Source: a bacterium (GTDB lineage Bacteria; B130-G9). From it: a stretch of DNA of 9,402 bases. Positions 2,591 through 9,402 of this stretch are shown here, piece by piece (within the stretch, counting starts at the first letter, position 1; every line of letters starts with the position of its first letter). The notes under the pieces were generated by a model, which was not told the origin of the DNA, made no database searches, and saw only the letters and a program-made list of their open reading frames with translations. Both the position numbers and the translations under genes were made by a program. The DNA lies in the NCBI GenBank assembly GCA_021160245.1, contig JAGHCW010000041.1:1-9402 (forward strand), given 5' to 3'.

Positions 2591-2836
2591 ATGAGCATGC
2601 AAGCAATTGAGTCGCACGACTTAGCGCAAGAAGCCCGATTCACAGAAGACGACATGGTCGTGAGGCTTGTTGATGGGCGAACGGTCTCCGTTCCATTGGA
2701 GTGGTTTCCGCGTCTGGCCAAAGCGACAAGAGAGCAATTGGAACACTATGAGATTCTCGGTGACGGAGAGGGGATACACTGGCCTGACGTTGACGAGGAC
2801 CTAAGCGTCGAAGGGCTGCTGCGCGGCAGTCATTAG
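2591..2836 (+). CDS. DUF2442 domain-containing protein
   Basis: An 81-residue acidic protein. Residues 22-80 contain MVVRLVDGRTVSVPLEWFPR, then LAKATREQLEHYEILGDGEG, then IHWPDVDEDLSVEGLLRG. This is the signature of DUF2442 proteins: two beta strands, a (L/W)-F/Y-P-R-L motif, and the near-invariant G-I-x-W-P-x-(V/I/L)-D-E-D-(I/L)-S-V-x-x-L-L ending. The role is unproven; the family commonly lies beside DUF4160 in toxin-antitoxin-like pairs, but no DUF4160 gene is seen here. The start at 2591 has a GGAGG site at 2580-2584. It lies 38 nt after hicB in the same direction, so it is probably cotranscribed and belongs to the same accessory block. Confidence 0.88.
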   Translation: MSMQAIESHDLAQEARFTEDDMVVRLVDGRTVSVPLEWFPRLAKATREQLEHYEILGDGEGIHWPDVDEDLSVEGLLRGSH

Positions 2837-3007: not shown

Positions 3008-3823
3008 TCATAGAGCCACCCGCTCCTTCAGCGCTTCCACATCCTCGCCCTTCTGAGCGAAGTAGTCGTTGATGTGGTCATCCAGAATAGCTCGCTTCTC
3101 ACGCATGAAATCCACGATACTCTCTTCCTTCAACGGAAGGCCGACCTTCATGAACTCGCGGAATATCGTGATAACGTCGCCGAATAGGCAGATCGGCTGC
3201 GTCCCAAAGTCCCTGTCCGCAATGCGGCGCCCCATCGAAAGGCCCGCCTCGCGCAACGTCTCACGCGCCTTCTCCCGAGTGCCGAAGTGATAGACGGGGT
3301 TTGAGTAGATCAATCCATAGTCCTCATGAAGACGCTTGTACTCGGCCAGGGTCACGGGCATCTGGTCGGGCATCCAGGCCGTTGCCGCCGAGGCGCCGTC
3401 AGATATGTATGGGATTCCGTGTTCGAGGTTATAGATCACAGATTGGGCATGCATCGCCATCTTGCAGCCCACACAGACAATAAATAGCGCCTTGTATCTC
3501 TTGAAGTCAGCGATAAAACTGTTTAGTACGAGCTTTCTGAAAAGTTCCCGAACGCTGGCCCCAAACTGCGTGAAAACTGGCCTTCCGAGGTGCCTTTCGA
3601 GCTCTGGGACACGCACCCTTGAGCGGCCAACAAACCAATGACCATAGCCTCGGTTATAGGTGAGCAAATGAACATTCTCGTATTGCTCAGCAAGCGTCAG
3701 AGCCGTAACGGTCGAATCCAATCCGCCCGAAAACATCAACGAGACAGCCGGCTTCTTCGAGCTCGGCTCCCGTCCGTTCTCCTTCACTACGCCAGTTTTT
3801 TCACCACAAAGACACTGAGACAC
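3008..3823 (-). CDS. PP-loop ATPase with CxxC...C cysteine triad (paralog B), putative sulfurtransferase
   Basis: A 271-residue member of the adenine-nucleotide alpha-hydrolase/PP-loop superfamily, whose members adenylate a substrate carbonyl oxygen before replacement by sulfur or nitrogen. The PP-loop FSGGLDST is at 31-38, followed by VHLLTYNRGYGH. Cysteines C117 and C120 (CVGCKMAMH) and C212 (GTQPICLFGD) form a CxxC plus distal Cys arrangement like the [4Fe-4S] ligands of TtcA; cluster binding is inferred. It is a clear paralog of the protein at 5402-6205: the shared blocks are LLT-x-x-x-GYGH, C-x-x-C-K-x-AMH, SDG-(A/S)-S and GTQP-x-C. The GTG start at 3823 is supported by AGGAG (3830-3834) overlapping the stop of the desulfurase gene 9 nt upstream. 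The first 12 residues come from a dispersed repeat, so cysteines 4 and 6 are probably irrelevant. It is last in the operon. QueC-like chemistry is an alternative, but QueC's four-cysteine zinc site is absent. Confidence 0.85.
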   Translation of the reverse strand: MSQCLCGEKTGVVKENGREPSSKKPAVSLMFSGGLDSTVTALTLAEQYENVHLLTYNRGYGHWFVGRSRVRVPELERHLGRPVFTQFGASVRELFRKLVLNSFIADFKRYKALFIVCVGCKMAMHAQSVIYNLEHGIPYISDGASAATAWMPDQMPVTLAEYKRLHEDYGLIYSNPVYHFGTREKARETLREAGLSMGRRIADRDFGTQPICLFGDVITIFREFMKVGLPLKEESIVDFMREKRAILDDHINDYFAQKGEDVEALKERVAL

Positions 3824-3829
3824 AGAGAG
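3796..3829. repeat. Dispersed 'TTCACCACAAAGACAC..GAGACACAGAG' type repeat
   Basis: The plus-strand sequence TTTTTTCACCACAAAGACAC continuing TGAGACACAGAGAG matches a motif that I recall as very frequent between genes of many uncultured bacteria and archaea. Here it overlaps the first codons and the start of the PP-loop ATPase gene, so the protein begins with repeat-encoded residues. No second copy is visible in this window, so the repeat status rests on recall. Confidence 0.45.
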
Positions 3830-3832
3830 CTC

Positions 3833-5053
3833 CTACCGATAGTGCTTGATCAATTGGGTTAGAACTTTGGCAAACAGCTCGCATTCAGCGGGCGTGTTAT
3901 AGACATAGACCGAGGCGCGGATTGAGTGCGCGAGGTCGTTGGCGTTGTACCACGAGTGGACGCAGAGGTAGCCGGCCCGAACCATGATATTGTGAGCCTG
4001 ATCGAGTATTCGAGCGACTTCCAGCGCTTTCATCCCATCAATGGACATGTTGAGAATGCCGCCTCGCAGTTCCGGGTTGTCCGGTCCGATGATGCTAAGT
4101 CCATCGATGCCGATAAGCATGTCGGTCATGATGCGATTAAGAGCGACTTCATGTTCATGAACCTCCTCAGGCCCAAGCTCCATCAAGAACTCCGCCGCAA
4201 CTCCGGCGCCGATGGCGCCCGCATAGTTTTGAAGCCCCGCCTCGAACCGGTCGGGTAAACCTGCGAGGACATAGCTATCATAAAACGTGTTGAGCACGGT
4301 CTCGCCACCGACGATGAACGGCTCCAGCTTGTTGAGCACTTCCTCTTTGGCCCACAGGACACCGACGCCGGTTGGCCCCATCATTTTATGCACGGAGAAT
4401 ACGAGAATATCGATACCCAGCTCCTGAACGTCAATCCTGCTGTGGGCCACAGATTGCGCTCCATCGACCATCACTAGGGCGCCGTGCTTGTGAGCGATTT
4501 CGGCGATCTCCGTGACCGGCACAGTGACCCCGGTCAGGTTCGACGTGTGTGCCACACTGACGAGCTTCACGTCGTCCGACATCGCCTCTAAGAATGCAGC
4601 GTGGTCAAACATCATGTCCTCATCTAGCTCCACAATGACGTGTCTCACTCCGCGCCGGCGCTTCAAGACCTGCCAGGGCAGGAGGTTGGAGTTGTGCTCA
4701 ACATTGGTTGTGACCACGATGTCGCCTTCCGAGAAGGGCAGCGAGTTTGAGATGAGGTTCAGGCCCTCGCTCGTGTTTTTTACGAAGATAAGCTCCTTGG
4801 ACTGCGGGGCATTGATAAGTCTGGCAAGCCGCTCCCTCGCGCGATCGTATTCTTCAGTAGTGCGCCGTCCAAAATAGTAAGTCGTTCTGCCGTGACATCC
4901 CGAGTAAGAGTAGTAATAATCGTTCATCGCCTCAACTACCGGAATCGGCTTCAACGACATACATGCGTTGTCGAGATAGACGACCGGTTTCCTGTTGATC
5001 TTAACGTGAAGCGCCGGAAAGAGCTTTCTTATGAGTGCAACATCCAGAGTCAT
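3833..5053 (-). CDS. Class V aminotransferase, SufS/CsdA-like cysteine desulfurase
   Basis: A 406-residue PLP enzyme of family length. Cysteine desulfurases convert L-cysteine to alanine and hold the sulfur as a protein persulfide. Visible motifs: LDNA near 27-30, VEHNSNLLPW (118-127) with the PLP-stacking His120, DGAQS (197-201) with Asp197, FSVHKMMGPTG (219-229) with the PLP-binding Lys223, GGE (249-251), FEAGLQNYAGAIG (270-282), and VRAGYLCVHSWYN with Cys364. The last lies where SufS carries its catalytic Cys, and the ending SIRASVYVYNT also matches SufS. The usual N-terminal HRGVHTLS-like segment is instead CHGRTTYYFGRRTTEEYD, so it is a divergent type. The start at 5053 has AGGA about 8 nt upstream and is 4 nt after the two-TM gene stop. 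Between two PP-loop ATPases it most likely feeds them sulfur. A related class V aminotransferase activity is less likely given Cys364. Confidence 0.9.
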   Translation of the reverse strand: MTLDVALIRKLFPALHVKINRKPVVYLDNACMSLKPIPVVEAMNDYYYSYSGCHGRTTYYFGRRTTEEYDRARERLARLINAPQSKELIFVKNTSEGLNLISNSLPFSEGDIVVTTNVEHNSNLLPWQVLKRRRGVRHVIVELDEDMMFDHAAFLEAMSDDVKLVSVAHTSNLTGVTVPVTEIAEIAHKHGALVMVDGAQSVAHSRIDVQELGIDILVFSVHKMMGPTGVGVLWAKEEVLNKLEPFIVGGETVLNTFYDSYVLAGLPDRFEAGLQNYAGAIGAGVAAEFLMELGPEEVHEHEVALNRIMTDMLIGIDGLSIIGPDNPELRGGILNMSIDGMKALEVARILDQAHNIMVRAGYLCVHSWYNANDLAHSIRASVYVYNTPAECELFAKVLTQLIKHYR

Positions 5054-5057
5054 TATG

Positions 5058-5405
5058 TCATCCTGCGAGTTTGAATACCGTGCCGGCCAGAAGACCCATT
5101 AGGCCGAGCATCCCGATTATCAGAAACAAATTGAAATACTTGAATACGAATCCGGAGAACGCTGGCGAGAGACCAAAGAGCTTGCCTGATACGATGCACT
5201 TGAGGTCCGGCCGCCAGAAATATGAATCGTTGAGCAGCTCGTTAAACATCCGTGGGGTTGATACCGAGAGAACGGTCGCAAGCGTCCGAGCCCAAAAGCG
5301 GAAGCGCTTGGAAAACATTCCAAGGCCTCCGAACAGCAGGAGGCCAAGACCGCCTAAGACGACGGAAAATGTCAGAAATATGAGCAACCCCAACATTGAG
5401 GTCAT
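5058..5405 (-). CDS. Small two-TM membrane protein of unknown function
   Basis: I do not recognise a family. The 115-residue protein has two strongly hydrophobic segments, about 4-30 (LGLLIFLTFSVVLGGLGLLL and beyond) and about 88-112 (FKYFNLFLIIGMLGLMGLLA and beyond). They are joined by a basic loop (SKRFRFWAR at 32-40) that by the positive-inside rule should be cytoplasmic, placing both ends outside. The loop also has a single Cys70 in DLKCIVSGK. The ATG at 5405 overlaps the stop of PP-loop ATPase A as ATGA, a translational coupling arrangement; a longer reading from 5435 would overlap that gene by 34 nt and has no better ribosome site. The position inside the operon, with 4 nt to the desulfurase, implies a role in the same pathway, perhaps anchoring or transport of a sulfur compound. 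That is inference only. Confidence 0.75.
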   Translation of the reverse strand: MTSMLGLLIFLTFSVVLGGLGLLLFGGLGMFSKRFRFWARTLATVLSVSTPRMFNELLNDSYFWRPDLKCIVSGKLFGLSPAFSGFVFKYFNLFLIIGMLGLMGLLAGTVFKLAG

Positions 5406-6205
5406 GCCCTTGCCGCTAAGTCCACAGCACGCCATCCCGAGCCATCGCCTCCTTTCAATCTTTGCACAAGCTCGTCCATATCCAAGCCCTTCTGGTCGAA
5501 CTTCTCTCTCATATAAGACACAGCAATCCGTTTCTTCTCCTCGATAAACTGCAGAACATCGTCTTGGGCATATTTAGGGTGTATCTTGAAAAACGTCGAG
5601 AAGAAATATATGAGGTTGCCCGGCACACAAAGCGGCTGCGTCCCCGGATTCCTGCCCGCGATATTAAGGCCCACGCTCCCGATCCCCTTTTGTGCCAGTA
5701 TCCTCTTCTCCTCATCCCTGCTACCCACCCGATAAACCGGCGTCGAGAAGTCGATGCCAAACTCCGCGTAGTAATCCTTAATCGCCCGCAAACTCTCCTC
5801 CATCTGCTCCACATAGTAGTTGGTCTGTGTCGATGACCCGTCCGATGAATGCCGAATCTCGTGCTCGAGGCAATACATGATCGTCTTGGTGTGCATCGCC
5901 AACTTGCAGGCCATGCACCATATAAACTTGGATTTGTACCGCCGATAATCGCCCGGCAACGTATCGATCAGGAGTTTCTCAAAGAGGTCCGAGCAGTCAT
6001 TTATTACGTGAACAAAGCGATGTTGCCCTAATATCCGATCGAAGTTGGGTCCCTGCCTCTTAGACCAATTCATAAAGCAGTGGCCGTAGCCATTGCAGAA
6101 CGTCAAAAGGTGCAACTTCTCATAAATGTCGGACAGCAACACGACGGTCGTCGTTGAATCGAGTCCGCCCGAGAACATAACCGTGCTCTCTCCTTGCCTC
6201 GTCAT
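5402..6205 (-). CDS. PP-loop ATPase with CxxC...C cysteine triad (paralog A), putative sulfurtransferase
   Basis: A 267-residue PP-loop ATPase. FSGGLDSTTT (11-20) is the pyrophosphatase loop, then LHLLTFCNGYGH. C97 and C100 (CMACKLAMH) with C193 (GTQPLCVPGN) repeat the CxxC plus distal Cys pattern of its paralog at 3008-3823 (spacing from second to third Cys 93 against 92), and SDGSS occupies the same place as SDGAS there. The frame is open upstream to 6472, but that would overlap the rrf2 gene by about 200 nt and give a low-complexity arginine-rich N-terminus. The ATG at 6205 is preferred: it has AAGGA 5-7 nt upstream, lies 64 nt after rrf2 and gives a length equal to the paralog. By family knowledge it should adenylate a substrate for thiolation; the substrate is unknown. 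Differences between the paralogs (extra C37, C43, C71 here) suggest two substrates or a heterodimer. Confidence 0.87.
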   Translation of the reverse strand: MTRQGESTVMFSGGLDSTTTVVLLSDIYEKLHLLTFCNGYGHCFMNWSKRQGPNFDRILGQHRFVHVINDCSDLFEKLLIDTLPGDYRRYKSKFIWCMACKLAMHTKTIMYCLEHEIRHSSDGSSTQTNYYVEQMEESLRAIKDYYAEFGIDFSTPVYRVGSRDEEKRILAQKGIGSVGLNIAGRNPGTQPLCVPGNLIYFFSTFFKIHPKYAQDDVLQFIEEKKRIAVSYMREKFDQKGLDMDELVQRLKGGDGSGWRAVDLAARA

Positions 6206-6241
6206 ATCTTCCTTAAAAACTCCCTGCGATTTAGTATTTTT

Positions 6242-6253
6242 GCAGAATTCTGC
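6242..6253. repeat. 12-bp perfect palindrome in the rrf2 / PP-loop ATPase gap
   Basis: GCAGAATTCTGC is its own reverse complement and lies in the 64-nt gap between rrf2 and PP-loop ATPase A, about 37 nt before the ATG at 6205. In transcript direction it is followed by AAAAATA, so it is not a canonical terminator for the operon; read on the plus strand it is preceded by a T tract. It could be a protein-binding site or chance. Confidence 0.3.
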
Positions 6254-6269
6254 TTGACGCCGAGCTGTC

Positions 6270-6698
6270 CTAATGTGGGCCGAAGCACCCTCTCTCTCCC
6301 TCCCCGGCCGCAAGATCAAGAAGGGAAATGCCCCGCAAGCTCTCTTTGACGGCTGAGGCGATATGCGACCACACTTTCCGCGTGGGGCAATCCCGCGCCT
6401 TCTTGCACAGGGAGGGATCATCGACGCATTCAACAAGGCAAAGGCTGCCCTCAAGCGCTGTGATAATCTCATCCACGCGAATCCGGTCCGCGGGTCGCCC
6501 CAGCACGTATCCGCCTCCTTGACCCCTGACGCTTCGCAGCAGGCCGGCCTCTCGAAGCTGCATCAGGATTCTATCCAGATATTTTTTCGATAATCCCTCA
6601 TTGTCCGCAACCACTTCACTTGAAGTCACCACACCGTTCTTACTGGCTATGAGAACCATTGCCCTCAGTCCATATCGAGAGCGAGTAGAAAGTTTCAT
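6270..6698 (-). CDS. Rrf2-family regulator with IscR-like cysteine motif
   Basis: A 142-residue winged-helix regulator. MKLSTRSRYGLRAMVLIA is the standard Rrf2 first helix, the recognition region is SSEVVADNEGLSKKYLDRIL (26-45) followed by LREAGLLRSVRGQGGGY with the wing, and the dimerisation helix follows. C91, C98 and C104 (with C87 nearby) have spacing C-x6-C-x5-C, close to the C92/C98/C104 [2Fe-2S] ligands of E. coli IscR, so Fe-S sensing is likely. The start at 6698 has a perfect GGAGGTGA ribosome site (6709-6702). It is first in the operon, 64 nt before PP-loop ATPase A. A perfect inverted repeat overlapping its own -10 region (6716-6736) suggests autoregulation and control of the whole cluster according to Fe-S or sulfur supply. 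The tail EGERGCFGPH adds another Cys and His. Confidence 0.9.
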   Translation of the reverse strand: MKLSTRSRYGLRAMVLIASKNGVVTSSEVVADNEGLSKKYLDRILMQLREAGLLRSVRGQGGGYVLGRPADRIRVDEIITALEGSLCLVECVDDPSLCKKARDCPTRKVWSHIASAVKESLRGISLLDLAAGEGERGCFGPH

Positions 6699-6715: not shown

Positions 6716-6745
6716 AATATACCTCTGTGGTATATTTAATGTAAA
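6716..6745 (-). promoter_or_regulatory. Promoter of the sulfur operon with overlapping perfect inverted-repeat operator
   Basis: On the minus strand TTTACA (6745-6740) and TATATT (6721-6716) are spaced 18 nt, matching sigma70 boxes at 5 of 6 and 5 of 6 positions. AATATACC (6716-6723) and GGTATATT (6729-6736) form a perfect 8-bp inverted repeat with a 5-nt spacer that covers the -10 box and the spacer. Symmetric AT-rich sites with ATACC/GGTAT ends recall IscR and other Rrf2 operators. Binding by the adjacent Rrf2 protein is therefore likely but inferred. Confidence 0.68.
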
Positions 6746-6960: not shown

Positions 6961-8031
6961 ATGCCACAGCTCTATCGGGTGATCATAGCATCTCTTCTTG
7001 CTTCAACTCCCTTTGAGATTCAGCCGAACCTGCAAGTAACAGGAAGGCGGCCAACATTGGCTAACTCAGAATTCTTGACCAACAAAGAGCAGGGCGACTG
7101 GGCGGAACAGATCGTATTTGCTGCTATAAATGAGAATTCTCCCGACTATTGTGCTGTGAAATATGGAAGATCGGAGTCACTTTCCGCAGGCGATCCTGGA
7201 TTCGATGAATTCTATCAAACCTACCAAGATGAGCTAAATGATATAGGGAAACGCCCGGACCTACTCATCTTTCGGAGGTCAGATATCGATAGACAGATCA
7301 TAGATCCGGATGATGAGCAGACGATTACCAGCGCAGTTGCTGCCATTGAAGTTAGATCAAGTTCCTTTCTTGCGAACCGCTATTCCCAATTCATGGAAAG
7401 ACGTGCAGAAACGGCCGTGCAGCAATGCCGGCATATTAGGTCAGAGCTGATGGAGCCACGAATGGCAGCTCTGCTCCATCAGAAGAGCCCGGAGATCCTC
7501 GCGCTGATCCAGGGTTCAACGGATGAGACCTTCAGGGAGCTCGATTTTCGGTTTCGTTCCTGGTCATCATCTACAGAGCTTCGCCAGCTATCAGAATTGC
7601 TCGGATCACTTAAAGAGCAGATTAAGATACTGCACAAACGAGACTACCTGAGTATAACGCCGAAGCTTGAGGATCTCGCGCTTGTCAATCGGTGGATTCA
7701 GCATTTCAATGTCAGGCATTACTATCTACAAGTGTTCTTCGACAAGGCTTATGTGATACCGTTTAGGGATATTCTTGAAATAGTATCGGATCCCGACAAG
7801 GAAGGCATAGTATTTTCTGTTGAGGAAGACGTCAAAAATCAGGGAAAGACGACAATAAAGATTAACGTTCGAGTCGCTAAGGAAATATTGGGGCGGATCG
7901 ATATGCCCGAGCACACATCGGCAATGAAAGAGCAGGAGAGGGGACGCCTCCTTTTCTACGTCACATTTCAAGGCGGGCGAGGCTACTTGGATAACAATGT
8001 CTTTGTTAATGAGATAATAAATGACCGATGA
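6961..8031 (+). CDS. Type II restriction endonuclease, AccI-like (tentative)
   Basis: A 356-residue protein upstream of, and overlapping by 11 nt, a gamma-type N6-adenine methyltransferase gene: a restriction-modification arrangement. The segment LQVTGRRPTLANSEFLTNKE, then QGDWAEQ, then GKRPDLLIFRR (96-106) and VAAIEVRSSSFLANRYSQF (126-144) resembles AccI-family endonucleases as I recall them. It fits a PD-(D/E)xK nuclease with E49, D100 and E130-x-R132; arginine stands where lysine is usual. AccI cuts GTMKAC, but specificity here is not established. The ATG at 6961 has AAAGGA (6949-6954) at 6-nt spacing. The enzyme would cleave unmodified foreign DNA and is toxic without its methylase. The PD-ExK plus R-M context is well supported; the exact family is less certain. 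Confidence 0.78.
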   Translation: MPQLYRVIIASLLASTPFEIQPNLQVTGRRPTLANSEFLTNKEQGDWAEQIVFAAINENSPDYCAVKYGRSESLSAGDPGFDEFYQTYQDELNDIGKRPDLLIFRRSDIDRQIIDPDDEQTITSAVAAIEVRSSSFLANRYSQFMERRAETAVQQCRHIRSELMEPRMAALLHQKSPEILALIQGSTDETFRELDFRFRSWSSSTELRQLSELLGSLKEQIKILHKRDYLSITPKLEDLALVNRWIQHFNVRHYYLQVFFDKAYVIPFRDILEIVSDPDKEGIVFSVEEDVKNQGKTTIKINVRVAKEILGRIDMPEHTSAMKEQERGRLLFYVTFQGGRGYLDNNVFVNEIINDR

Positions 8032-9402
8032 CCTTGCAGGAGCATATAGCTCAATCGTATCTCCTGAACATAGGCGAGCACTAGGGCAATTCTTTACGCC
8101 ATATAGTGTTGCGATCTTCATGTGCCGATGGGCTATGGCAAGCGGCGCCGATGAACTCCATGATCCCGCCTTCGGATTGGGTTCCTTTTATTTCGCGGCA
8201 AAGGCTCTCTTCGCATCCCAGAAGTTCACAGGCAAAGAGATCGATGCTGATATCTTAGATTATTTCCTTACGCATGCTCCTGAAGCACCACGCTTGGTTC
8301 TGAGACAAGGAGACTATTTGGCTGATTGGGGGAAGACTCATGAGGCAATTGTCTGCAATCCTCCATATATGCGATTCCAGCATTTCGCCAATAGATGTGA
8401 AGTACTGGCATCTTTTGAACGCCATCTCAAAATGAAGCTTTCCGGTTACACGAACATTGCCTCTGCTTTCTTGCTCAAATCGCTTTCAGAATTGGCGTCT
8501 GGAGGTCGCCTTGCTTTTATCATGCCGCTTGAGTTTCTGAATACGGGCTACGGCAAAATCGTTAAGGATAGGCTTCTTCAGAATGGAATGCTGAAGGCGC
8601 TTATCAAGCTTGAGCCAGAAAAGGAGATTTTCCCAGATGCAACAACCTCACTTGGAATTGTCTTGGCGAGTAAGAACGCACTTATCGAACCAGTAAGGTT
8701 CTATGCTGTACAGAATCTGGAGGAATTACCGAATGTGCTCTCCTCGTTGCCCTTGCGAGAAGTTGATTCTACGGACCTGGACCCGGCAGAGAAGTGGTTC
8801 AAGTATTTTGAAGATGGTCGCTCCTCATTCAGTGTTTCTGATTGTGTTTCTGATTGTGTTTCCGTTGATTTCTATGGCAGATTCAGTCGTGGCATTGCAA
8901 CAGGGGCAAATGAGTTCTTTACGATGTCGCGGAGCAAAAGAACGCAGCTTGGTATTTCTCGCTCCTACTTTCTGCCTTGCATATCTAAGAGCGCCCAGAT
9001 CAAGACACCTGTATTCACTCATTCAGACTTCAGCGAACTAGAGGATTCGGACTCTAAGGTGTTCTTACTGAATGTTGATGGCGAACCAGCAGAGGCAGTA
9101 TACGACTATCTCAACGCTGGCAAGAAAATGGGCTACCACCTCAGGTATCTCACGAAGATGCGAACGCCTTGGTATAAGCTTGAGCGAAGGACACCGGCTC
9201 CGTTGCTGTTTGGGGTGTTCTCAAGGGGGAAATACAAAGTTGTTCGTAATTTGAGCTCTGCAATTAACCTAACATGCTACCACTCCTTCTATCCGAATCT
9301 TTTCGGGCAACGGCTTTGCGATGCTCTGTTCCTGTACTTTCAATCAAGAGCAGCTCGGAGGATTCTTAGTACAAATATGAGACGGTATGGAGACGGGCTG
9401 GA
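8021..9402 (+). CDS. N6-adenine DNA methyltransferase of a Type II R-M system (3' end outside window)
   Basis: The frame from ATG 8021 is open to the window end (460 codons). It begins MTDDLAGAYSSIVSPEHRRA, then LGQFFTPYSVAIFMCRWA (motif X type, GQFFTP at 22-27), DPAFGLGSFYFAA (48-60, SAM-binding motif I), GKEIDADILDYF (motif II), and CNPPYMRFQHF (112-122, catalytic motif IV NPPY). LAFIMPLEFLN is motif VI. The order X-I-IV before a long C-terminal target-recognition region is the gamma class, as in M.AccI and M.TaqI. It transfers a methyl group from SAM to adenine in the site cut by the partner endonuclease. The start codon lies 11 nt inside the end of the endonuclease gene, so translation is probably coupled; there is no strong ribosome site. 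A 12-bp in-frame tandem repeat is at 8832-8862. The carboxyl end is missing. Confidence 0.92.
   Translation, partial: MTDDLAGAYSSIVSPEHRRALGQFFTPYSVAIFMCRWAMASGADELHDPAFGLGSFYFAAKALFASQKFTGKEIDADILDYFLTHAPEAPRLVLRQGDYLADWGKTHEAIVCNPPYMRFQHFANRCEVLASFERHLKMKLSGYTNIASAFLLKSLSELASGGRLAFIMPLEFLNTGYGKIVKDRLLQNGMLKALIKLEPEKEIFPDATTSLGIVLASKNALIEPVRFYAVQNLEELPNVLSSLPLREVDSTDLDPAEKWFKYFEDGRSSFSVSDCVSDCVSVDFYGRFSRGIATGANEFFTMSRSKRTQLGISRSYFLPCISKSAQIKTPVFTHSDFSELEDSDSKVFLLNVDGEPAEAVYDYLNAGKKMGYHLRYLTKMRTPWYKLERRTPAPLLFGVFSRGKYKVVRNLSSAINLTCYHSFYPNLFGQRLCDALFLYFQSRAARRILSTNMRRYGDGL
8832..8862 (+). repeat. In-frame 12-bp tandem repeat in the methyltransferase
   Basis: GTGTTTCTGATT occurs twice in tandem (8832-8843, 8844-8855), followed by a partial third copy GTGTTTC (8856-8862). 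It encodes SVSDCVSDCVSV in the region between the catalytic and recognition domains. The unit is a multiple of three, so slippage would add or remove four residues without breaking the frame. Confidence 0.8.

Follow-up and report, generated by a model that had tools for sequence, protein, structure and literature searches.

What is the role of an operon that places two PP-loop ATPases beside a cysteine desulfurase, a small membrane protein and an Rrf2 regulator? A preliminary description of the locus had proposed an undescribed pathway adding sulfur to a tRNA base, DNA, a metabolite or a lipid. Here we ask how far that proposal holds and which kind of substrate the genes point to.

Organisation and setting of the operon

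The window, that is, the whole stretch of 9,402 nucleotides analysed, is contig C37 of a 3.43-Mb draft genome; a contig scan for relatives gave one match, labelled Candidatus Coatesbacteria, which is the closest named relative. On the minus strand, reading from 6698 to 3008, lie in order the Rrf2 regulator, PP-loop A, the small membrane protein, a SufS-like desulfurase and PP-loop B, five genes in one direction at the positions first given for them. The spacings along the operon are 64, − 34, 4 and 9 nt when the membrane protein is taken from its MACCG start. Three of these are as originally reported, whilst the supposed overlap of 3 nt is most likely one of 34 nt, since the start at 5435 (MACCG...) is kept across phyla. 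All five genes are under purifying selection (pN/pS 0.16–0.27 between the window and the relative G001). Given the spacings, the domains, the promoter, the purifying selection and the copies in relatives, this is not a chance array of open reading frames, and the operon is confirmed as real.

A phage origin was rejected, no relative being present among the viral contigs and phages searched, as was a plasmid origin, the plasmid matches being to Ycf/Tgs-type proteins only. A defence system was also discarded: PADLOC matched DndA/SspA only, via the desulfurase fold. On the plus strand, an AccI-type restriction endonuclease is found at 6961–8031 (Pfam RE_AccI, 9e-114), followed by a frame resembling an N6-adenine methyltransferase with an NPPY motif (about 8015–9402), which runs past the window end. 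Flanking the operon are HicB-like antitoxin and DUF2442 genes at 2337–2552 and 2591–2836 (plus strand), probably toxin–antitoxin remnants.

Promoter and regulator

A candidate promoter (− 35 TTTACA, 18-nt spacer, − 10 TATATT) matches the consensus at 6716–6745 on the minus strand and has a similar counterpart, aligned with it, ahead of rrf2 in two relatives. The locus had been credited with a single evident promoter; the candidate is one of the two best among four consensus matches in the region, where 2.6 are expected by chance. Inside its spacer, at 6718–6734 and assigned to neither strand, is an operator-like palindrome, TATACC-N5-GGTATA (TATACCTCTGTGGTATA), the sole exact match in the window, with 0.07 matches expected at two or fewer mismatches. 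Upstream of rrf2 in the two relatives, the − 35, half-sites and − 10 are recognisable, and the palindrome takes the form CTAC(C/T)..GGTATA.

The regulator itself (6270–6698, minus strand, 142 residues; Pfam Rrf2, 3.6e-35) scores 121.6 bits against TIGR00738 (rrf2_super), above the cut-off of 73.3. It is not IscR by TIGR02010 (91.5 bits, cut-off 207.55) and falls below the cut-off of the NCBIfam CymR model. Its cysteines 87, 91, 98 and 104, an Fe-S-like set, are conserved among the copies of the window, G001 and G003, in line with its initial assignment as an Fe-S-type regulator. We infer that it binds the promoter palindrome, through which it would tune expression to the Fe-S or redox state.

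The PP-loop proteins and YcfA

PP-loop A (5402–6205, minus strand, 267 residues) has SGGLDS at 12–17, a CxxC at 97/100 and a third cysteine at 193, motifs that are invariant over 18 homologues. PP-loop B (3008–3823, minus strand, 271 residues) has the same SGGLDS and keeps the triad; it is 38% identical to A and falls in a separate clade. The two are old paralogues. At 3802–3828, in the stretch between the desulfurase gene and that of PP-loop B, a repeat-like sequence (CACAAAGACACTGAGACACAGAGAG) overlaps the GTG annotated as the start of B, whose true start is therefore uncertain.

Against Pfam and NCBIfam, both proteins give weak matches only, over the ATP motif. With the QueC model TIGR00364 they score 22.3 and 23.4 bits (cut-off 150.3), over the PP-loop segment only; with the MnmA model TIGR00420, PP-loop B scores 19.5 bits (cut-off 236.95) and PP-loop A has no match. 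No curated LarE model is listed for either at E up to 0.1. By sequence there is one clear relative in the PDB, the top match 9kq6, which is YcfA of Erwinia amylovora (E 1.6e-10 from a single sequence, 5e-32 from a profile). The structure predicted by AlphaFold for PP-loop A (mean pLDDT 83.5; about 45 in the low-confidence loop before C193) also fits YcfA best, with a VIA-align Z of 27.1, an rmsd of 1.8 over 213 residues and a Foldseek E of 4e-12. The next family is ThiI (Z 16.4), with QueC (13.9), LarE (12.9) and the nitrile synthetase ArtA among the lower matches.

By sequence and predicted fold, then, the PP-loop proteins belong with YcfA and TgsB of 6-thioguanine synthesis, with which they share the full PP-loop domain fold and the K-(L/I)-A-x-H, DG and EQ motifs. 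They are not QueC, MnmA or TtcA, and they lie far below the QueC and MnmA cut-offs. The preliminary description had not recognised the gene set as a named pathway and had called for structure prediction; the PP-loop proteins are no orphans, being kin to an enzyme of 6-thioguanine synthesis. Two further candidates were dismissed: replacement of MnmA, which is present in the genome, and selenocysteine in the relatives' PP-loop genes, where the in-frame TGA is an ordinary stop at the gene end.

The cysteine triad

Without exception, the 18 rows of alignment A1 carry the CxxC + C triad, and so do the added proteins of G106, G228, G316 and G182. The triad is absent from the three Ycf/Tgs-type proteins, which have LLG(D/E)K and LEGVS instead and differ from PP-loop A and B in this respect. 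In the tree the Ycf/Tgs-type rows form their own clade (100/99), and all the other proteins carry the CxxC (97/100 in PP-loop A) and the third cysteine at 193, mostly as QP-x-C. A very distant candidate, G258, deviates from the triad and was kept out of the final tree.

In LarE of Thermotoga maritima, Cys92, Cys95 and Cys172 hold a catalytic [4Fe-4S] cluster that is fed in vitro by IscS (PMC9283937), and the same triad binds [4Fe-4S] in NcsA (Cys142, Cys145, Cys233) and TtuA (PMC10067955, PMC7138817). The open iron of such a cluster is thought to carry a transferable sulfide (PMC9283937, PMC10067955, PMC7138817). The PP-loop proteins here share with TtuA, TtcA, NcsA and this LarE the SGGxDS motif, a triad of similar spacing and a basic residue after the CxxC, and their triad sits where TtuA, TtcA and NcsA ligate the cluster, which by analogy makes an Fe-S site probable. 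The use of desulfurase sulfur, seen in vitro for T. maritima LarE, would be a further common feature. The proteins here differ from these enzymes in that the fold match is only moderate (Z about 13 for LarE) and zinc fingers are lacking: PP-loop A has no further CxxC of the kind paired in TtuA and NcsA, and B offers no more than a C-x-C at an N-terminus that is itself in doubt.

The desulfurase

The desulfurase (3833–5053, minus strand, 406 residues) has a class-V aminotransferase/SufS-like domain (E 4e-109) and aligns over its full length to solved SufS proteins (E to 5e-86). Among the residues that align with these type II enzymes are the catalytic Cys364, within VRAGYLCVH, and, at the PLP site, an H-K with the PLP lysine. 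It differs from SufS in its score against TIGR01979 (397.4 bits, under the cut-off of 475.1) and in the extra cysteines 31 (in D-N/S-A-C) and 53, which are conserved in its clade, at positions mostly occupied by Ala and Asn in the SufS proteins aligned. The genome differs too: SufB/D (PF01458) is absent from it and from six of the other seven searched, all control genomes being positive. The desulfurase is thus unlikely to serve a SUF machine, and a SUF-linked role was rejected. IscU/NifU-type scaffolds are found in seven of these eight genomes and MnmA in all eight, including a true MnmA elsewhere in the window's genome. Also in that genome, a related desulfurase and an RsmD-like gene lie together without a PP-loop gene (L095:6399–8297).

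In staphylococci, too, the 6-thioguanine system links a PP-loop gene to a class-V PLP enzyme, TgsA. The one TgsA sequence compared, that of Staphylococcus chromogenes, aligns with a gap at the catalytic-cysteine loop, which it seems to lack, whereas the operon desulfurase keeps Cys364. The persulfide and Fe-S features thus appear to be missing from the 6-thioguanine pair and present in the operon, as read from that single, divergent alignment.

The MxCCG protein and conservation of the module

The membrane protein (5058–5435, minus strand, 125 residues) has two predicted transmembrane helices (hydropathy peaks at 17–35 and 103–121) and a conserved segment around LSP..SG..(F/Y)KY. It has no match in Pfam or NCBIfam, and its structural model (pLDDT 57) is too poor for a fold search. 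Its relatives (family A3) all begin with MxCCG and all directly follow a PP-loop gene. Strong matches occur in 6 of 386 genomes, every one of them among the 12 that carry the PP-loop family and always adjacent to the PP-loop gene. The six are not independent, three coming from one family and two from one genus, and we count them as three phylum-level lineages. As far as we have searched, the MxCCG protein would be an undescribed family dedicated to these PP-loops.

G001 and G003, members of the same family, have six genes: Rrf2, PP-loop A and MxCCG are followed by an additional, longer MxCCG copy, and then by desulfurase and PP-loop B. G106 has PP-loop, MxCCG protein and desulfurase, as does G228, with an acyl-ligase-like gene upstream that is under all family cut-offs. 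In G088 the PP-loop and MxCCG genes are adjacent and a desulfurase relative is on another contig. The module includes its desulfurase in G106, in G228 and in the three related genomes. PP-loop relatives were found in the phylum of G037, none with an MxCCG neighbour. The five-gene order, whose conservation elsewhere had been named as a check on the proposal, is kept in two related genomes, and the core recurs in three phylum-level lineages. The core unit is PP-loop, MxCCG protein and desulfurase, the remaining genes being lineage-specific.

The PP-loop family is expanded, A and B each having a stand-alone paralogue in the same genomes. The paralogue of B, B', adjoins rsmA in two genomes (L025:1925–3551, L031:7500–9108). 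There is also a type C, which in G002 and G001 has a related desulfurase and rsmD as its partners (L026:702–3528, L030:1721–4629). Just downstream of the G001 operon is a Thi4-like gene (L020:5608–6420, minus strand) with in-frame TGA and TAG, which looks like a pseudogene.

Plasmids of S. chromogenes and Alicyclobacillus carry homologues whose operons also contain NUDIX, DMT-transporter and HAD genes, as does the tgs operon for 6-thioguanine, which is laid out in the same way (PMC7994395). The ycf and tgs operons differ from ours in their NUDIX, exporter and (in tgs) HAD phosphatase genes and in the absence of an MxCCG partner. None of those genes is in the window or was seen in the relatives' module; they are present in S. 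chromogenes (L034). Since the NUDIX, phosphatase and exporter genes of 6-thioguanine synthesis are missing, no product chemistry is indicated.

Proposed function

We think it fairly probable that the operon encodes a thiolation module, dedicated, ATP-dependent and belonging to the YcfA superfamily, that is fed by the desulfurase and relies on [4Fe-4S]. Its target would be a small molecule located in the membrane or close to it, and its expression would respond to Fe-S or redox state. The thiolation chemistry is well supported by homology, and in view of the YcfA kinship, the triad and the linked desulfurase, thiolation remains the best reading, as first proposed. In this scheme, which follows chemistry established for the homologous enzymes, the desulfurase would form a persulfide on Cys364 with sulfane sulfur drawn from L-cysteine. 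That sulfur would pass to a [4Fe-4S] cluster on the triad of each PP-loop protein, to be held as sulfide on the unligated iron. The PP-loop site would adenylate a substrate oxygen, and the sulfide would displace AMP, turning C=O into C=S. What the MxCCG protein does is guesswork: it may hold the module at the membrane, or its vicinal cysteines may form a dithiol that carries or accepts sulfur. The PP-loop paralogues might each have a substrate of their own, or modify different positions of a shared one.

The substrate is most likely a small molecule, nucleotide-like or a membrane-linked metabolite. The nucleotide-like option is considered because YcfA structures have been solved with GTP. Kinship with YcfA, the membrane partner and the absence of RNA-binding domains all speak for a small molecule or membrane-linked metabolite rather than RNA. 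This narrows the range of substrates originally listed, of which DNA finds no support here. TgsA and TgsB in 6-thioguanine synthesis provide the small-molecule precedent, the enzymatic reactions being unknown in that report (PMC7994395). More tentatively, the module could belong to an undescribed membrane-associated pathway in several uncultured phyla that makes a thio-metabolite or lipid, the MxCCG protein being a novel type of membrane-anchored sulfur carrier or itself sulfur-modified.

We consider it unlikely that the module thiolates a tRNA or rRNA base in the manner of TtcA, TtuA and NcsA, with the membrane protein as an accessory. The triad is that of TtuA and NcsA, ThiI is the second-best fold, and B' and C (the latter with its desulfurase) adjoin rsmA (L025, L031) and rsmD (L026, L030), respectively. 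Against these points, the PP-loop proteins are small and single-domain, without THUMP or the zinc-finger cysteine pairs; MnmA is present in all eight genomes searched; the family is sparse (12/386 genomes); and a conserved membrane partner would be odd for an RNA enzyme. PP-loop enzymes also form amides, lysidine and nitriles, and the two proteins might transfer nitrogen to give an amide, amidine or nitrile (like N-acetyl sugar amidotransferase, QueC or ArtA), the desulfurase having a separate function. QueC and ArtA are indeed among the lower fold matches, and distant homologues lie near carbamoyltransferase-like and glycosyltransferase-like genes. We nevertheless find this quite improbable: YcfA stands about 13 Z units above QueC and ArtA, the desulfurase is linked in three lineages and again with paralogue C, and the operon has no glutaminase or ammonia source. 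More improbable still is Fe-S assembly or repair in a lineage without SUF, with the desulfurase feeding clusters and the PP-loop and membrane proteins helping. The Rrf2 regulator comes from an Fe-S-sensing superfamily and SufB/D is missing in seven of the eight genomes, but IscU/NifU-type proteins in seven of the eight provide a general scaffold elsewhere, the operon has no scaffold, carrier or ATPase of known assembly systems, and PP-loop enzymes are not, to our knowledge, involved in assembling clusters.

Thiolation of a small molecule thus remains our preferred reading. The synthesis of 6-thioguanine is among the few known routes in which a PP-loop enzyme adds sulfur to a small molecule in its free form, and our comparison suggests that the YcfA superfamily is split between a cysteine-less branch and a wider one in which an Fe-S-type triad goes with a true persulfide-forming desulfurase. 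The module offers a test case for a change in sulfur delivery between the two. It also ties an undescribed membrane protein family to sulfur transfer and is a pointer to thio-compounds in uncultured phyla. A search of open papers gave nothing further on this gene set or on the mechanism of YcfA. The claim of an undescribed pathway stands in that sense and gives way for the PP-loop proteins, which go with YcfA and TgsB; within those papers the operon appears to be an undescribed, conserved variant of PP-loop sulfurtransferase with a new membrane partner family.

Distant PP-loop relatives (L062, L064, L114, L115) lie near NodU/CmcH-like carbamoyltransferases, B12 radical-SAM enzymes and membrane glycosyltransferases, identified by eye from N-terminal sequences, neighbours suggestive of a surface glycan or lipid modified with sulfur or nitrogen.
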